A DNA stretch of 51,242 nucleotides, from positions 1 to 51,242 of the IMG/VR virus record IMGVR_UViG_3300038825_000172, one strand, 5' to 3'. The notes under the pieces were generated by a model. It was not told the origin of the DNA and did no database searches. It saw only the letters and a list, made by a program, of their open reading frames with translations. Both the position numbers and the translations under genes were made by a program. This document shows positions 21,372-27,266 of the stretch, in pieces. How positions within the stretch are numbered: the stretch's first letter is position 1; each line of letters begins with the position of its first letter. The DNA comes from a virus.

Positions 21372-21589
21372 AAACAAAAGAAGCAAAATTATTACAATAT
21401 ACTTTACTATACGACAGGTCAGGTAAATTAGTTACAGAAAGAATATCAACAGATATTAAAAAACTAAAACCTTATTTTAGTAAAGAAGAGTATTCAATAC
21501 TAACAACTCTTATGAGAGAATGTACTCAAAAATTAGATGAGATACATAATCATATAGAATGTAATTTAGATGCAAGGGTAATGACATAA
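21368..21589 (+). CDS. Small hypothetical protein, 73 aa
   Basis: Opens MKTKEAKLLQYTLLYDRSGK, then helices ending in IHNHIECNLDARVMT. No family recognised. Both ends overlap neighbours (ATGA at its start, one base with the cyclase start), so it is translationally linked to the cyclase. Confidence 0.6.
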   Translation: MKTKEAKLLQYTLLYDRSGKLVTERISTDIKKLKPYFSKEEYSILTTLMRECTQKLDEIHNHIECNLDARVMT

Positions 21590-23397
21590 TGAAATGGGCT
21601 TGTTTATTATTAAGTTTATTAACATTACCTTTATTATTTAATGTTACACCTTTAGAAACAATAAGATTAAAAACCTTTGATGCTTTTGTACACACTCCTG
21701 AACCATCAGGCAACTTTGTAATCTTAAATATTACTGAAGAAGATGTAGAGAAAAAAAGAGGTTATCCTTTTCCTAGACAAGATTTAGCACAAATACAAGC
21801 AGATTTAATTAACAAAGGTGCTTTAGGTGTAGGGTGGGTTATAGTTTTCCCACAACCAGATAGGTTTGGAGGAGATAAAATATTCGCAGAAATTTTAAGT
21901 TATTCTTCTAGTGTATTAGCTATGCCAGAGTTTAACAATGGAAAATATCCTAAGACACATGGTACAGTTATATTAGGACCAGATGTAAACTTACCGATAG
22001 CTAAAGGATTTATACAAAATATACCAGAGCTTCAAGAAGTTTCTTCTCAAGGTGCTGTGTCTGCTCCTGTAGATGTAGACAATCTTGTAAGAAGAATACC
22101 TTTACTACAAAAAACTCCAGATGGTTGGGTAGCTTCTTTTGGAACTGAAGTATTGAAAACTTTAGTAGATGCTAATACTTATCAAATAAAAACAAATGAA
22201 AACGGAATTGAACAAATAAGAGTTAGAGGACTTGAGCCAATATCAACAGATAGTCTTGGTCGTAAATGGATTAGTTGGGTTGATACACCACAAACCACAC
22301 TAGAAGAAATGGATGTTGAAGGTAAGTTTGTATTTGTAGGTGTTACTGCGTCAGGTGTAATGCCCACTTTAGCCACGCCAAATGGGTTATTAGAACCACA
22401 CAAGATACAGGCTGCCCTTGCAGAAAGTATTTTGATTGACTCTCCTTTCATACCAGACTATAGATTGTTTGTAGAACTACTTATATTATGTGTCTCTGGA
22501 TTACTCATAGCCTTTCTAATAACAAGATTAGGTATTACATGGGGTATGTTATCAGCAGGAACTTTAATGTTCTCAGTAGGCTCTCTTGGTTATTACTTTA
22601 TATCTATCGGGTATCTTATAGATGTCACATGGAGTATGACATGTATGACACTTATTGCCCTACAACAATTCTATTTAAACTTTAGAACACAATTTAAATT
22701 AAGACAACAAATCAAAAAACAATTTGGTACTTACCTTTCTCCTGATATGGTAGCTATGCTACAAAAGAATCCAGAGCTTTTAAAGCTAGGTGGAGAAAGA
22801 AAAGAAATGACATTCTTATTTACTGACATCATGGGCTTTACTCCTGTGTCAGAAGTATTTAAAAATAATGATGACCCTGAAGGTTTAGTAGAACTTATTA
22901 ATACTTATCTTGATAAGATGACAAAGATTATACTAGCTAATGGTGGAACTATTGACAAGTATATGGGTGATTGTATCATGGCATTTTGGAATGCTCCTCT
23001 TCCTTGTGAGAATCATGCAGAGTTAGCTATTAAATCTGCAATAGAAATAGAAGAAGCAACCTTAGAACTTAATAAACAATTTAAAGAACAAGGTTTAGAC
23101 TTACCACCTATCAATGTAGGAACTGGTGTCAACTCTGGAACTTGTATTGTTGGCAACATGGGAAGCGAAACAAGGTTTGATTACTCTGTTGTTGGGGATG
23201 CTGTAAATTTATCAGCTAGATTAGAAGCTACTGCCGGTAGAAATGATTATAAACAATGGAAGATAATTATATCTGAGTATACTAAAGACTTAGCAGGTGA
23301 TTGTTTTGATTATGAAAAGATAGATAGTATATTAGTAAAAGGTAAATCAGAACCAATAACAATTTATTCTCCTAAACCCTTGACAAATTTAAAATAA
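21589..23397 (+). CDS. CHASE2-domain adenylate cyclase (class III), membrane bound
   Basis: 602 residues. One N-terminal membrane helix (3-18), a periplasmic CHASE2 sensor (about 25-290), three membrane helices (292-312, 316-338, 343-360), a short helical linker and a C-terminal class III cyclase (about 405-595). Catalytic residues are complete: metal-binding D413 (FTDIMGFT) and D461 (KYMGDC), substrate-selecting K457 and D531 (FDYSVVGD), transition-state N540 and R544 (VNLSARLE). The K/D pair indicates ATP, hence cAMP. It would sense an envelope signal and raise host cAMP. It is last but one in the early arm; a FecR-domain protein, a partner often seen beside CHASE2 cyclases in bacteria (recalled), is encoded opposite at 24002. 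Codon use matches its neighbours. Confidence 0.9.
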   Translation: MKWACLLLSLLTLPLLFNVTPLETIRLKTFDAFVHTPEPSGNFVILNITEEDVEKKRGYPFPRQDLAQIQADLINKGALGVGWVIVFPQPDRFGGDKIFAEILSYSSSVLAMPEFNNGKYPKTHGTVILGPDVNLPIAKGFIQNIPELQEVSSQGAVSAPVDVDNLVRRIPLLQKTPDGWVASFGTEVLKTLVDANTYQIKTNENGIEQIRVRGLEPISTDSLGRKWISWVDTPQTTLEEMDVEGKFVFVGVTASGVMPTLATPNGLLEPHKIQAALAESILIDSPFIPDYRLFVELLILCVSGLLIAFLITRLGITWGMLSAGTLMFSVGSLGYYFISIGYLIDVTWSMTCMTLIALQQFYLNFRTQFKLRQQIKKQFGTYLSPDMVAMLQKNPELLKLGGERKEMTFLFTDIMGFTPVSEVFKNNDDPEGLVELINTYLDKMTKIILANGGTIDKYMGDCIMAFWNAPLPCENHAELAIKSAIEIEEATLELNKQFKEQGLDLPPINVGTGVNSGTCIVGNMGSETRFDYSVVGDAVNLSARLEATAGRNDYKQWKIIISEYTKDLAGDCFDYEKIDSILVKGKSEPITIYSPKPLTNLK

Positions 23398-23407
23398 GTA
23401 TTATAAT
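23380..23407 (+). promoter_or_regulatory. Promoter for hsp20
   Basis: TTGACA (23380-23385), 16 bp, TATAAT (23402-23407), with the -35 box inside the last cyclase codons. It allows hsp20 to be expressed independently of the cyclase operon; the start site is near 23414. Confidence 0.75.
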
Positions 23408-23440
23408 ATAAGAAGAGTGTGCGAAAGGTCGGCACTCAAT

Positions 23441-23461
23441 AACTTGCTTTATAAAGGAGTT
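23441..23461 (+). promoter_or_regulatory. Hairpin over the hsp20 ribosome-binding site (possible RNA thermometer)
   Basis: AACTT (23441-23445) can pair with GAGTT (23457-23461, one G-U), then after a bulged G CTT (23447-23449) pairs with AAG (23454-23456) around a TATA loop. The Shine-Dalgarno AAGGAG (23454-23459) is fully within the stem, and the weak A-U pairs would open on warming. Another small stem, GTGC/GCAC, lies upstream at about 23419-23434. Small heat-shock genes are classic thermometer targets; this is inference from pairing. Confidence 0.4.
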
Positions 23462-23464
23462 AAT

Positions 23465-23878
23465 ATGACAAACATAAAAGCATTTGGGCAATTCAGTCCG
23501 TTCTCAGTAGGGTTTGATGAAATGTTTAATACATTACAAAGAGCATCAATACCTCAATCAAACTATCCACCTTATAATATTCTTAAAAAAGGTGATACAT
23601 ATTATATTGAAATAGCAATGGCAGGATTTAATAAGTCTGATATTGATATTGAAATAGAAGATAATACTTTAACTGTCTCTGCATGTTATGGAGATAGAGA
23701 AGATGATATAGAATTTGTTCACAAAGGAATTTCTGAACGAGAATTTTATAAATCATTTGCTCTAGCTGAGTATGTTGAAGTTAAAAAAGCTAGTGTTGCT
23801 GATGGAATATTACTTATTGAACTAAATAAAAACATTCCAGATGAGCAAAAGCCTAAAAAAATTAAAATTTCTAGGTAA
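23465..23878 (+). CDS. Small heat-shock protein, IbpA/Hsp20 type
   Basis: 137 residues from ATG 23465 (AAAGGAG upstream; the longer frame from 23417 lacks one). The alpha-crystallin domain is complete: YPPYNILKKGDTYYIEIAMA, GFNKSDIDIEIEDNTLTVS, then HKGISEREFYKSFALAEYVE and ADGILLIELNKNIPD, and it ends KPKKIKISR. This follows bacterial IbpA closely, including the short N-terminal GFDEMFNTL. It would hold unfolding proteins during infection, possibly including secreted amyloid-like product from the facing cluster. It has its own promoter and a possible thermometer. Confidence 0.9.
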   Translation: MTNIKAFGQFSPFSVGFDEMFNTLQRASIPQSNYPPYNILKKGDTYYIEIAMAGFNKSDIDIEIEDNTLTVSACYGDREDDIEFVHKGISEREFYKSFALAEYVEVKKASVADGILLIELNKNIPDEQKPKKIKISR

Positions 23879-24001: not shown

Positions 24002-25108
24002 CTAATCCCCTTGTTTTATCTTAATAGTAGAAGAACCACCACCATTAACTACAATTTGTGTACTCTTTCCATTTTGCACAAGGATAACAGTATAAGAACC
24101 TGTCTTATCTAAATCTAATCTTACTGTATCTTCTAATGATTTTAAAAATGTTACGACATTATCTGTAGTAAAAGTATTAACTTGTGTGTTAGAATCAAAA
24201 CCCATAGTTGTTCCTTTTAAATCAAAGTCAGCTTTCAATAAAGTTTCTGTTTGGTCTAACTCATTTACATCTTGTATAATATCTAACAAGTCTTCAAGAA
24301 AGTTTACATCTAAATAATTAATATCTAGTTCTGTAAATTCTAACTCATCCTCTGCTAGATAGTCTACATCTAAATCATCAAAGTCAAGGAAGTTAGCATC
24401 AAGAACATTAGAACTGCTACTTCCATCTTCTCCCTGTACATTTATATTCTCCTTTGGTGGATTAACTATTAACATATTATCTATTAACTCTAAAGTTAAA
24501 TCTAATATAACCGGTTTAGTAGGTTCTAGTTCAAACATAGAAACTGTAGTAGCTTGATAGGGCTTGTTAAGAATTACTTCTCCTGCACCTGTTGCTACTA
24601 ATATTTCTCCACTAGGAGTTCCATCTGCTTTTGGTAATAATATAATCAACGATTCGCCTATCTCATTTACTGTAATTGTAAAATCAGTTCCACGAATTGA
24701 CACATTAGCACTTGGCGTACTAATAGAAATGTTTTCTTTGTTTATATTATTTAACTTGCCAGTAATAAACCTTGCAGTTCCACTAGCAAAATTCAAAGCC
24801 ATTGTAGATTTTGAAGGATTAGGGTCATAGATAAATTCATCTATAACTAATTGTGAATGCTCTGTTAATCTTACTTGACTATTATTAACAAAGGTTATAC
24901 CTATTCTACCATTAGAAGTTTCAACATTGTCAAAACTTTCTATACCAAAAGATAAAGCAGCATCGTAAGTTTCATCTCTTACAATCCTGCTGTTACCTTT
25001 AAGTTCTGTTACGCTTCCAATACTAGCATCCGACTGTTGTGCCACCATCGTTTTGGATAACACAGACAGTACCATTATTGCCAGTTGAAAGTATCTTGAG
25101 CCAATCAT
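24002..25108 (-). CDS. FecR-domain secreted protein with acidic leucine-pentad repeats
   Basis: 368 residues. Signal peptide about 1-24 (LAIMVLSVLSKTMVAQQ). The FecR domain (about 30-185) shows GNSRIVR..., FDNVETSNGRIGITFVNN, VRLTEHSQLVIDEFIYDP and ANVSIRGTDFTITVN, typical of periplasmic FecR proteins that stand apart from iron-sigma systems. Residues 236-276 are eight tandem five-residue units starting with Leu (LDANF, LDFDD, LDVDY ... LDVNF). A beta-rich C-terminus ends VVNGGGSSTIKIKQGD. Last gene of the late arm; its signal-peptide coding part overlaps the curlin-like gene by 86 bases. Possible partner of the CHASE2 cyclase or of the curli-like fibre. Confidence 0.8.
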   Translation of the reverse strand: MIGSRYFQLAIMVLSVLSKTMVAQQSDASIGSVTELKGNSRIVRDETYDAALSFGIESFDNVETSNGRIGITFVNNSQVRLTEHSQLVIDEFIYDPNPSKSTMALNFASGTARFITGKLNNINKENISISTPSANVSIRGTDFTITVNEIGESLIILLPKADGTPSGEILVATGAGEVILNKPYQATTVSMFELEPTKPVILDLTLELIDNMLIVNPPKENINVQGEDGSSSSNVLDANFLDFDDLDVDYLAEDELEFTELDINYLDVNFLEDLLDIIQDVNELDQTETLLKADFDLKGTTMGFDSNTQVNTFTTDNVVTFLKSLEDTVRLDLDKTGSYTVILVQNGKSTQIVVNGGGSSTIKIKQGD

Positions 25109-25739
25109 TGTCTAATGTACTAAGTTGTTGTATGTTAAAAGTTCTAGAGTTACCTGTTTGGTCTAAGTAAAAATAACCACCAGCATAACCACTACCTGTA
25201 AAAGTAACATTGTTACTATCTCCATCAACATCAACATAAGAAGTACCACTATCGTAGTTTATATCAAAATCAAATGTATTACTACTACCATTAATAATCC
25301 AGTCTAAATCTGTATTACTAGCCATAGCAGTTGTACCTACATCTAATGTAAAAGTATTACTATCTCCAGTAGTATCTACATTAAAATTAGAACTATCAAT
25401 ACCATAAGTATTGGTTGGGTCTGCTTGTATAGTAAATGTATTACTGTCTCCATCAAATTCAAAAAATCCTGTAATATTATCTCCTAGTATATCACCAAGA
25501 AATTTATTACTATCTCCTATTTGATTAATATCTAGAGTTAGATTTAATCCATCTAAATCTAGGGCAGTTAAAGTTCCTGCAACAGAATTTAATCCACCTA
25601 TTATATTTCCAGAACCAAGTTGTTCTAAATCTATATTAGCAGTAGCACCTGATTGGTCAATGTATATTTCGTTATCAGCCCCGTATGTTGTCAACGCAGT
25701 CAACATCACAACTAGGCTCATCAATTTTAATTGTTTCAT
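25023..25739 (-). CDS. Curlin-repeat (CsgA/CsgB-like) secreted protein
   Basis: 238 residues. Signal peptide about 1-20 (MSLVVMLTALTTYGA). The mature part is built of about nine units with a G-x-x-N core between hydrophobic strands: DQSGATANI, EQLGSGNII, NQIGDSNKF, EFDGDSNTF, DTTGDSNTF, IINGSSNTF, DVDGDSNNV, DQTGNSRTF and LSTGNNGTV. This is the strand-turn-strand unit of curlins (QxGxxN), which stack as a beta-solenoid amyloid. Two Cys end the protein (VCVIQ...VGC). It lies directly behind csgG and overlaps it by 65 bases. It is the likely substrate of that channel; polymerisation is inferred. Confidence 0.8.
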   Translation of the reverse strand: MKQLKLMSLVVMLTALTTYGADNEIYIDQSGATANIDLEQLGSGNIIGGLNSVAGTLTALDLDGLNLTLDINQIGDSNKFLGDILGDNITGFFEFDGDSNTFTIQADPTNTYGIDSSNFNVDTTGDSNTFTLDVGTTAMASNTDLDWIINGSSNTFDFDINYDSGTSYVDVDGDSNNVTFTGSGYAGGYFYLDQTGNSRTFNIQQLSTLDNDWLKILSTGNNGTVCVIQNDGGTTVGC

Positions 25740-26532
25740 ATTCCCAATACCCTCTCTCTATTCCTGTTTCTATTAAGTTAAATACTCCAGCTTCTATTGC
25801 CTTTTGCAAAGCTATAGAACCCACCTCGTTCTCAGCTACTCCTCCTTCTATTTCTACAAGTTCTGTACCTTGTTCATAGAATTTAAAGACATCTTGAGAA
25901 ACGCTTGTAGATAAAACATTTTTAGAAACTGTAGTCTCTACTAATATTTCACCTGTTGATACAGAAACTAATCGTAATGATATAGTTACTACATCTTCTC
26001 GGTATTGTTTACTTGTACCTATTCCTAAATACCTAGCACCAATACCACCAGATTCTACATTTGTGTCATAACTAATTACTCCACCTTGTATTATAAGACC
26101 AGCAAATAATAAAGGCTGGAGCTTTTGGTCTTGCTCAAAGTTTTCTCTGGTTGACCGAATAAGTTGTCGTTCTTTTGTAAGATTATCTAATCCTACTCGT
26201 TCAACAACTCTAAAAAATTCTCCGTTAGCAGCATGTTTTAAAGCTCTTATAAGTAATGCTTCAGGAGCTTGTGTGACTGCTGTACTAAACAAAGCAAAGC
26301 TACTGTTACTTTTTCTTTGTCCTGTTAAGTCTTGAAAGCTATCTCTATATACTGCTATTATTGGTTTTCTTTTAGCAGGAGGTACTTCAGCTAATGCAAC
26401 TGATTGTAAATCTAAAATATTGGCAGGTTCTGTATCTCTTGTTAAAGATAAATCTTTATTTTGATTTAAAACTGCACAGCCACTAAAAGGTAAAGCTACC
26501 AATAGGCAAAGAAATAGTCGTTGTATTTCCAT
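25675..26532 (-). CDS. csgG: CsgG-like outer-membrane curli secretion channel
   Basis: 285 residues against 277 in E. coli. A lipoprotein signal ends at the lipobox FSGC (Cys18). Strong family signatures: FSTAVTQAPEALLIRALKHA, VVERVGLDNLTKERQLIRST, SGGIGARYLGIGTSKQY and LRLVSVSTGEILVETTVSK, ending with GIERGYWEYE. CsgG forms a nine-subunit lipoprotein barrel. In the constriction loop the E. coli Phe56 has a match (ALFSTAV) but Asn55 aligns with Leu and Tyr51 with Ser, so the pore lining differs. Encoded after csgF and before the curlin-like gene. No CsgE or CsgC homologue is visible. Confidence 0.93.
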   Translation of the reverse strand: MEIQRLFLCLLVALPFSGCAVLNQNKDLSLTRDTEPANILDLQSVALAEVPPAKRKPIIAVYRDSFQDLTGQRKSNSSFALFSTAVTQAPEALLIRALKHAANGEFFRVVERVGLDNLTKERQLIRSTRENFEQDQKLQPLLFAGLIIQGGVISYDTNVESGGIGARYLGIGTSKQYREDVVTISLRLVSVSTGEILVETTVSKNVLSTSVSQDVFKFYEQGTELVEIEGGVAENEVGSIALQKAIEAGVFNLIETGIERGYWEYETIKIDEPSCDVDCVDNIRG

Positions 26533-26977
26533 CTGAATCCGTAATTTTCAAAGTTATTATTCCATCGACAACACTATATTCGATTGTATTGCCCTCTAAA
26601 GTTAATACACCACTATCGCTAGGAGTTTCTCCAAATAAGTTTTCTACTAATTGTCTTGATAGCTGTGCATATATTCTAGACTCTAAGTTTCTTATAAACC
26701 TTGCAAGTGTTGTGTTTTCTTTGTCTCTTTTAATCTGGTCCTGTAAAGCTTTGAGTTCTTCTTTGATACTCATCTTTCTATTAAACTCTTGATTTTCTAT
26801 AGTAAGATAATGTGCAGATGTTCCCATACCACTAAAGCTAGGGTTTTTAAATTGATGTACCATCTCATCTGATATACTATTAACAGACCAAAACATAATT
26901 AACATGGACCAAAAGAACATACAAAACTTACAGTTCCTATCAGTTTTTTTACTTTTAAATGTTGGTTTTATTTTCAT
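26483..26977 (-). CDS. csgF: CsgF-like curli assembly factor
   Basis: 164 residues from ATG 26977; a start at 27007 (174 residues) is also open. The shorter one follows the previous stop by one base. After a hydrophobic signal (FFWSMLIMFWSVNSIS) the mature N-terminus is MVHQFKNPSFSG, matching the FxFxNPxFGG segment by which CsgF plugs into the CsgG pore. The C-terminus (EYSVVDGIITLKITDSDGN, then TTTISLP) matches the CsgF tail. Between them lies a longer charged helix than in E. coli (EELKALQDQIKRDKENTTLA). It overlaps csgG by 50 bases. CsgF links channel and nucleator on the cell surface. Confidence 0.88.
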   Translation of the reverse strand: MKIKPTFKSKKTDRNCKFCMFFWSMLIMFWSVNSISDEMVHQFKNPSFSGMGTSAHYLTIENQEFNRKMSIKEELKALQDQIKRDKENTTLARFIRNLESRIYAQLSRQLVENLFGETPSDSGVLTLEGNTIEYSVVDGIITLKITDSDGNTTTISLPIGSFTF

Positions 26978-26978
26978 A

Positions 26979-27266
26979 TTAATCTTTTCGTTGGTCTTTT
27001 TTTCCATCTGCTCTTGCTAACCTATCTACATCTATAGTTACTCCCATAGCTGTTCTTACCATAGAGTCTATTCTTATCATATCATTATCCATTTGTCTTA
27101 CTCTGTCTATTAATGCAACTATCATACTATGTTGCGTATCTAATTTTTTATGTACATCTGCTATTAAAGCATTAAATAATTTATATACCATCCAACCAGC
27201 AGCAACTGCAAAGGCTGCAGGAATACCTACAGACTCTAATATTGTCATAAAATCTCTAGTGTCCAT
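26979..27266 (-). CDS. Holin-like membrane protein, one span plus coiled coil
   Basis: 95 residues: a membrane helix (VGIPAAFAVAAGWMVYKLF), then a long amphipathic helix with heptad spacing (LIDRVRQMDNDMIRIDSM) and a charged tail KKDQRKD. This plan is common among small phage lysis and membrane-anchor proteins. It lies between the three-span protein and csgF, overlapping both at its ends. The holin role is inferred from topology and position at the end of the late operon. Confidence 0.55.
   Translation of the reverse strand: MDTRDFMTILESVGIPAAFAVAAGWMVYKLFNALIADVHKKLDTQHSMIVALIDRVRQMDNDMIRIDSMVRTAMGVTIDVDRLARADGKKDQRKD

Follow-up and report, generated by a model that had tools for sequence, protein, structure and literature searches.

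A stretch of viral DNA of 51,242 nucleotides (IMGVR_UViG_3300038825_000172, the window hereafter) encodes a curli, or type VIII secretion, module in which the pore, its partner and a curlin-type substrate are all supported, as had been proposed in an earlier note on this DNA. The source is an HTVC103P-type podovirus (PolA 53% to HTVC115P, 24% to HTVC023P), and the host of this marine phage is probably SAR11. The core of the module consists of four open reading frames of the minus strand, at the positions given in the earlier note, which code in turn for CsgF, for CsgG, for a secreted repeat protein of the curlin type and for a secreted protein with a FecR domain. The cluster comes after the virion genes, in agreement with its assignment to the late strand, and genes for a CHASE2-cyclase and an Hsp20 protein converge on it; the module occupies the point where the early and late gene arms meet. 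The association of a substrate and FecR in one phage operon had been thought new, but it has precedents in phages HTVC008M and Melnitz and in the literature (PMC9599517). What is new is a further phage lineage, together with a bacterial operon of the same order that points to the origin of FecR and the cyclase. The HTVC103P-type podovirus differs from the published curli-carrying lineages, and the module is now present in a third phage lineage. Phage-encoded curli would represent a rare case of a virus giving its host a new surface fibre.

The explanation that we favour, and hold to be somewhat better than even, is that the phage captured as a unit the csgF-csgG-curlin-FecR-CHASE2-cyclase operon of an alphaproteobacterium. 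In the late phase of infection, CsgG with CsgF attached would make up a pore in the outer membrane and export the curlin protein, which would assemble as an amyloid-type fibre at the surface of the infected cell. In the periplasm, FecR would pair with the cyclase's CHASE2 sensor, with no part in iron regulation, and the two would couple envelope state, or curlin export, to cAMP. The benefit may be a shield against superinfection, or the holding together of cells. Counting against this explanation, Melnitz-infected cultures showed no clumping (PMC9004378). We found no recent timing study of a curli-carrying phage in the literature; a paper covering HTVC022P and HTVC027P (PMC12753301) makes no mention of curli.

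CsgF (26483-27007, minus strand; likely start 26977) is identified by its Pfam match (E=1.8e-18). It shares 25% identity with E. coli CsgF, relative to which the alignment reveals a helical insert, and its mature N-terminus retains the CsgG-binding motif (HQFKNPSFSG versus QFRNPNFGG in E. coli). CsgG (25675-26532, minus strand), an outer-membrane lipoprotein pore of 285 residues, is a clear member of its family (Pfam E=2e-50), as the earlier note had it, and displays 41% identity with its E. coli counterpart. Its lipobox, FSGC, harbors an invariant Cys19. The constriction loop is altered: Phe56 is retained, while E. coli Tyr51 and Asn55 are not, and these two differences out of three constriction residues weigh against the favoured explanation. 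The same holds for CsgE, CsgC and CsgD of the E. coli type, for which no match was found in Pfam and NCBIfam among the scanned genes of the module and its neighbours. To note, many bacterial curli operons do not possess these three proteins (PMC9599517).

The curlin-type protein (25023-25739, minus strand, 238 residues) carries a signal peptide and eight G-x-x-N turns, and has a pair of cysteines at its C-terminal end. The earlier note had described a secreted repeat protein of nine such units; its nature stands, the count does not. Six of the repeats fit G[DNS][SNG]N, as compared to 0.27 expected from shuffles. Taken alone, the protein has no significant Pfam match (Curlin_rpt E=0.79) and its matches to the NCBIfam CsgB and CsgA models are weak (0.003 and 0.011). 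Its assignment to the curlins comes through profiles and relatives: Curlin_rpt is matched by 9 of the 16 members of its family (best 8.6e-6), and a profile of the phage curlin relatives, which links to bacterial curlins, finds, at E<1e-3, 78 ORFs within the csgG loci of bacteria and nothing in reversed or shuffled copies. The AlphaFold model (mean pLDDT 77) is a ladder of short β-strands. A structure search of the PDB with this model returned no significant match, and we do not consider the fold to be solved; a profile search of the PDB gave only a weak match to a curlin repeat (8c50, E=0.06). The poor Curlin_rpt score and the lack of a PDB match count against the favoured explanation. The gene is kept beside csgG, as is that of FecR, in every fetched relative with enough DNA past csgG, and with a dN/dS of about 0.13 it is the most constrained of the module. 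The protein is presumed to be the fibre subunit. It might instead be a secreted effector or a surface coat built on a curlin-solenoid scaffold, as its middle repeats are degenerate, with Q-x-G-x-x-N complete only twice, and its conserved cysteine pair sets it apart from E. coli CsgA. We consider this quite improbable: the repeats of a Caulobacteraceae curlin adjoining csgG are degenerate in a similar way, and it too has paired cysteines in its C-terminal part.

Directly before csgF, a gene (26979-27266, minus strand, PHROG 18771) encodes a protein of 95 residues that crosses the membrane once and contains a coiled coil. This gene and that of the CHASE2-cyclase were missing from the cluster delineated in the earlier note. 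The protein may be holin-like, as 3 of the 12 members of its family match a PHROG holin (best 1.1e-4). A "histidine kinase" has been placed at this position before csgF in the HTVC023P-type module (PMC9599517), and from its position the 95-residue gene would be the same gene. Neither the protein nor its 12-member family displays a HisKA/HATPase or other kinase domain in Pfam or NCBIfam; if the two genes are the same, the published reading of the first module gene comes into question. The gene was rejected as specific to the curli module, as cassette-free relatives (L121 and L152) carry it. It is preceded by a gene of the phage backbone (27266-27706, minus strand) for a multi-pass membrane protein of 146 residues; relatives without the cassette carry this gene at the corresponding position.

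These holin-like membrane proteins adjoin the module on the late strand and, together with the lack of a CsgE gate among the genes scanned and the altered constriction loop, are consistent with a CsgG-CsgF pore adapted to a new role, either to time lysis or to permeabilise the envelope, in which the repeat protein would be secondary or a pore plug. Such a role has been put forward for Melnitz (PMC9004378), but the argument was drawn from missing curlin genes, while the Melnitz record (MZ577097) annotates two curlin-repeat proteins and a FecR. The curlin gene, which no relative read has lost and which is the most constrained of the module, and the CsgG-binding motif retained in CsgF also make this role an unlikely one. 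Furthermore, the module is carried by about a third of the close relatives, and the majority that do not carry it presumably still lyse their hosts. Relatives free of the cassette make its insertion place visible. Among genome contigs, an alignment-based scan found relatives where a single-protein scan had found none. The module genes are under purifying selection, with median dN/dS of about 0.13-0.21 for CsgF, CsgG, the curlin, FecR and the cyclase.

The secreted FecR-domain protein (24002-25108, minus strand; Pfam E=5.5e-10) is composed of a signal peptide, a FecR/PupR-type domain (about 31-189), acidic Leu-Asp repeats of five residues (about 236-275) and a terminal β segment ending in STIKIKQGD. 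Its model matches FecR/PupR structures (Foldseek probability 1.0 to 6ovk and 4m0n). The cyclase (21589-23397, plus strand) associates a CHASE2 sensor (Pfam 7e-27) with a class III nucleotide cyclase domain (Guanylate_cyc 1e-18). The catalytic motifs known for class III cyclases are present, at residues 411, 456 and 529. In the window it is turned to the early strand and can share no transcript with FecR, which counts against the favoured explanation; in many relatives it follows FecR in the same direction. The adjoining Hsp20 small heat-shock protein (23417-23878, plus strand; Pfam HSP20 1.6e-17) was rejected as a module member: relatives that lack the cassette have it as well (HTVC115P gp39; L101), and it probably belongs to the phage backbone.

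The name and domain of FecR would suit a pore through which nutrients or cofactors (iron compounds, for example) are taken up during infection while FecR senses iron, a role suggested previously (PMC9599517 and PMC7029224). It is very unlikely in our view. Pfam and the model reveal neither the N-terminal cytoplasmic anti-sigma domain of FecR regulators nor their membrane anchor, as the protein has no transmembrane segment besides its signal peptide; the search of the module turned up no gene for a sigma factor or a TonB receptor; and an uptake pore would have no need of a curlin substrate. Bacterial FecR pairs with CHASE2 sensors: the two lie within about 3.5 kb of each other in 11 of the 21 alphaproteobacterial genomes having both, and a Burkholderia operon of FecR and a CHASE2-kinase is reported to control biofilm (PMC5192318). 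Since FecR genes frequently lie next to CHASE2 genes in Alphaproteobacteria, a periplasmic partnership with the cyclase is a likelier role for the phage FecR than iron regulation. Full-length FecR of the phage type is rare in bacteria, which counts against the favoured explanation.

The FecR C-terminus resembles a curlin half repeat, measured against a background of bacterial ORFs only, about 2.5% of whose ends also score high, some of them perhaps undetected curlins. With its curlin-like terminal strand, FecR could attach to curlin at the pore or within the periplasm and signal this via CHASE2 to cAMP, and FecR and the CHASE2 cyclase would then be a curli-export sensor brought in whole by the phage. 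This extension is tentative and rather unlikely. If true, it would equip an infected cell that has no curli itself with a regulated system for amyloid secretion.

The favoured capture of a whole operon is supported by three alphaproteobacterial genomes, two Caulobacteraceae MAGs and Hyphomonas sp. TMED17 (L166-L168), whose chromosomes carry csgF-csgG-curlin-FecR-CHASE2 cyclase in the same order and strand, with overlapping FecR and cyclase genes in all three. Given this shared order, FecR and the cyclase probably came with the captured operon. In a quick CsgG tree, the three bacteria and all phages group apart from 73 other bacteria (SH-aLRT 95). As they form one cluster without resolved branching, the direction of transfer is inferred and not proven. 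FecR and the cyclase had been stated to be absent from bacterial curli operons (PMC9599517, 2022), a statement that these operons call into question.

Compared with E. coli csgBAC-csgDEFG, the phage module shares the curlin-type repeats and the CsgG and CsgF families at the identities given above, but its scanned genes include FecR and a cyclase and no CsgC, CsgD or CsgE, and its CsgG constriction residues are different. The Burkholderia BiofilmReg operon (PMC5192318) also sets a secreted FecR-domain protein beside a CHASE2-domain sensor, although the former is a FecR/LysM protein, the output is a histidine kinase and not a cyclase, and no curli genes are reported. Among phages, the CsgF-CsgG-CsgA/B-FecR-AC module described for HTVC023P-type podoviruses (Wittmers et al. 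2022, PMC9599517) has the same succession of small membrane protein (their histidine kinase, by position), CsgF, CsgG, curlin, FecR, an optional second curlin and cyclase. In the HTVC103P-type phage of the window, the cyclase is inverted and adjoins Hsp20, and we found no second curlin gene. The clusters of pelagimyophage HTVC008M (NC_020484), whose record annotates a "curlin minor subunit CsgB", and of methylophage Melnitz also align CsgF, CsgG (44 and 40% identity, respectively), curlin, FecR and cyclase in order. These phages are myoviruses, with two copies of the small membrane protein and a second curlin-type gene between FecR and the cyclase. The three alphaproteobacterial operons share families, order and strand with the phage module, and their FecR is alike over its full length. 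They differ in being chromosomal, in having one or two curlins, an extra C-terminal stretch in the cyclase and no 95-residue membrane protein, and they offer a tractable source for learning the roles of FecR and the cyclase.

The curli module of the window, a virus record of 51,242 bp, forms part of a row of six minus-strand genes that lie behind the virion genes and overlap end to start. The first encodes a 146-aa membrane protein, the second a 95-aa membrane protein (26979-27266; PHROG 18771), and csgF follows directly (Pfam CsgF, 1.8e-18). Next come csgG (Pfam CsgG, 2e-50), the gene of a 238-aa secreted repeat protein of curlin type (25023-25739) and that of a 368-aa secreted FecR-domain protein (24002-25108; Pfam FecR, 5.5e-10). 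Ribonucleotide reductase beta, on the plus strand, converges on these six genes, as do a CHASE2-cyclase (Pfam CHASE2, 7e-27; cyclase, 1e-18) and an Hsp20 (Pfam HSP20, 1.6e-17), both within 21589-23878.

The CsgG-binding segment is conserved in the window CsgF. Of the residues that we take to form the CsgG constriction, Phe56 is kept, Tyr51 and Asn55 are not, and the loop is longer by one residue. A CsgG match of 42% identity is also encoded by OR851715.1 (1,499 bp), an entry named Salmonella phage S.Kent 1-2-1 whose DNA may come from the host and not from a phage.

Taken alone, the 238-aa protein yields weak scores (Pfam Curlin_rpt, E=0.79; CsgB, 0.003; CsgA, 0.011). Within bacterial csgG loci, a profile of its phage relatives matched 78 ORFs (E<1e-3), many of them less than 2 kb from csgG and rich in Q-x-G-x-x-N motifs; reversed and shuffled controls gave zero matches. 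The protein has eight G-x-x-N turns, and six conform to G[DNS][SNG]N, as compared to 0.27 expected. The predicted structure is a ladder of short strands (mean pLDDT 77), with which a PDB structure search returned no significant match. The protein is thus predicted to be a curlin, an assignment convincing at the family level but weak from the single sequence. Its C-terminal Cys pair (VCVIQNDGGTTVGC) is conserved in many phage relatives, and the Caulobacteraceae curlins described below likewise end in a Cys pair.

Structure search matched the FecR model to the FecR/PupR periplasmic domain. Since the protein starts with a signal peptide and lacks the anti-sigma domain, its reading as an iron regulator is little supported. 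FecR would instead be a partner of the CHASE2 sensor. A FecR match is present in 21 of 22 alphaproteobacterial genomes that were chosen because CHASE2 matched strongly; in 11 of these 21, a FecR lies within ~3.5 kb of a CHASE2 gene, as counted by hand from listed positions, with CHASE2 matches listed in part and contigs often short. In Burkholderia, a FecR-CHASE2 kinase operon controls biofilm (PMC5192318). A likeness to a curlin half repeat is seen at the FecR C-terminus (...NGGGSSTIKIKQGD): of 28 distinct FecR termini, 25 reach at least 8 bits on a bacterial-curlin matrix, against 2.6% of background ORF ends. As the termini are mutually related, two of the three low-scoring exceptions look truncated and one bacterial FecR (L168, below) is without the motif, this likeness is only a lead. 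Residues about 236-275, of low confidence in the model, consist of acidic Leu-Asp repeats, each five residues long (LDANF LDFDD LDVDY ...), that recall pentapeptide repeats.

A profile-guided genome scan, followed by a search with phage profiles, identified three bacterial loci with the order csgF-csgG-curlin-(curlin)-FecR-CHASE2 cyclase: L166 and L167 in Caulobacteraceae MAGs, and L168 on a 705-kb contig of Hyphomonas sp. TMED17. FecR and the cyclase (AC in PMC9599517), both missing from bacterial curli operons according to that study, here share one such operon, and their genes overlap. L166 and L168 are surrounded by what look like ordinary chromosomal genes (named by eye), e.g., CoA transferase, TonB receptor and acyl-CoA dehydrogenase. 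In a CsgG tree obtained by a quick method and with long branches, the phages and these three loci group together against all other bacteria (SH-aLRT 95). Because the order inside this group is left unresolved, capture of the module from bacteria is likelier than proven. No full-length match to this FecR type was found in 398, 199 and 398 further sampled genomes (partly overlapping samples); apart from the three genomes, the type is rare in bacteria. Four other matches in bacterial genome contigs, assigned to MAGs of Maricaulis, Pelagibacter, Rhodobacteraceae and Planctomycetaceae, contain the phage-type cassette including the 95-aa gene; these contigs probably belong to phages and were placed in bacterial bins.

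Seventy-six viral csgG loci were fetched; wherever their DNA reaches far enough beyond csgG, curlin and FecR adjoin it. Many loci have the cyclase in the same direction, several of them with Hsp20; in others, the window among them, the gene is inverted. The inverted gene lies on the early strand beside Hsp20 (together 21589-23878 in the window), in some relatives too, and elsewhere runs with FecR; its expression timing may differ between the two kinds of phages. Median pairwise dN/dS, by a simple counting method on related sequences, is 0.18 for CsgF, 0.20 for CsgG, 0.13 for curlin, 0.15 for FecR and 0.21 for the cyclase, and 0.40 for the 95-aa protein. Among close relatives chosen by ribonucleotide reductase, with at least 6.5 kb downstream, the module is present in 10 and absent in 19; the latter include the separately fetched HTVC115P, and therefore 10 of 28 chosen contigs carry it. 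One cassette-free relative (L152) has the 146-aa and 95-aa genes at the early/late junction and no csg genes, and another (L101) has the 146-aa gene and Hsp20; the module thus lies directly behind this membrane-protein pair.

According to PMC9599517, csgF is always preceded by a histidine kinase (HK), sometimes two. The window gene at this position encodes the 95-aa protein, with a single membrane segment and a coiled coil, and HTVC008M and Melnitz have two copies of this type; from position, it may be the HK of that study. Domain searches of the protein and its family found no kinase domain, and 3 of 12 family members have a weak PHROG holin match. The protein occurs in podoviruses and myoviruses, including two cassette-free relatives (L121 and L152).

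The window DNA polymerase and terminase are closest to those of HTVC115P, HTVC103P and HTVC104P, with identities to HTVC115P of 53% (PolA), 60% (capsid) and 71% (ribonucleotide reductase beta). The sole protein matching HTVC023P is PolA (24%). As the genome set of PMC9599517 required PolA similarity of at least 45% to its cultured phages, the window lineage should lie outside it. Three other viral loci (L071, L072 and L075) have six or seven proteins in common with HTVC023P; the window's clade has proteins in common with HTVC115P. From the nearest phages and 32% G+C, we infer SAR11 or a relative as host.

CsgF and CsgG were reported by Zaragoza-Solas et al. 2020, who proposed “sibling capture” (PMC7029224). 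Wittmers et al. 2022 described CsgF-CsgG-CsgA/B-FecR-(CsgA/B)-AC in HTVC023P-type podoviruses and myoviruses, detected the module across ocean viromes and saw transcripts (PMC9599517). Buchholz et al. 2022 proposed a role in lysis and saw no clumping (PMC9004378). The Melnitz paper states that csgA/csgB are lacking, yet the GenBank entry of this phage lists two curlin-repeat proteins within its curli cluster. For the window module, every function is an inference. The earlier note had called a phage operon with substrate and FecR new; given these descriptions, it is not. The pelagimyophage HTVC008M and the methylophage Melnitz possess, like the window, CsgF, CsgG, curlin, FecR and cyclase in identical order. 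What is new is the bacterial counterpart, together with two likely corrections to published annotation. The window module is, with good support, a member of an already known kind of phage curli system, in a further phage lineage.
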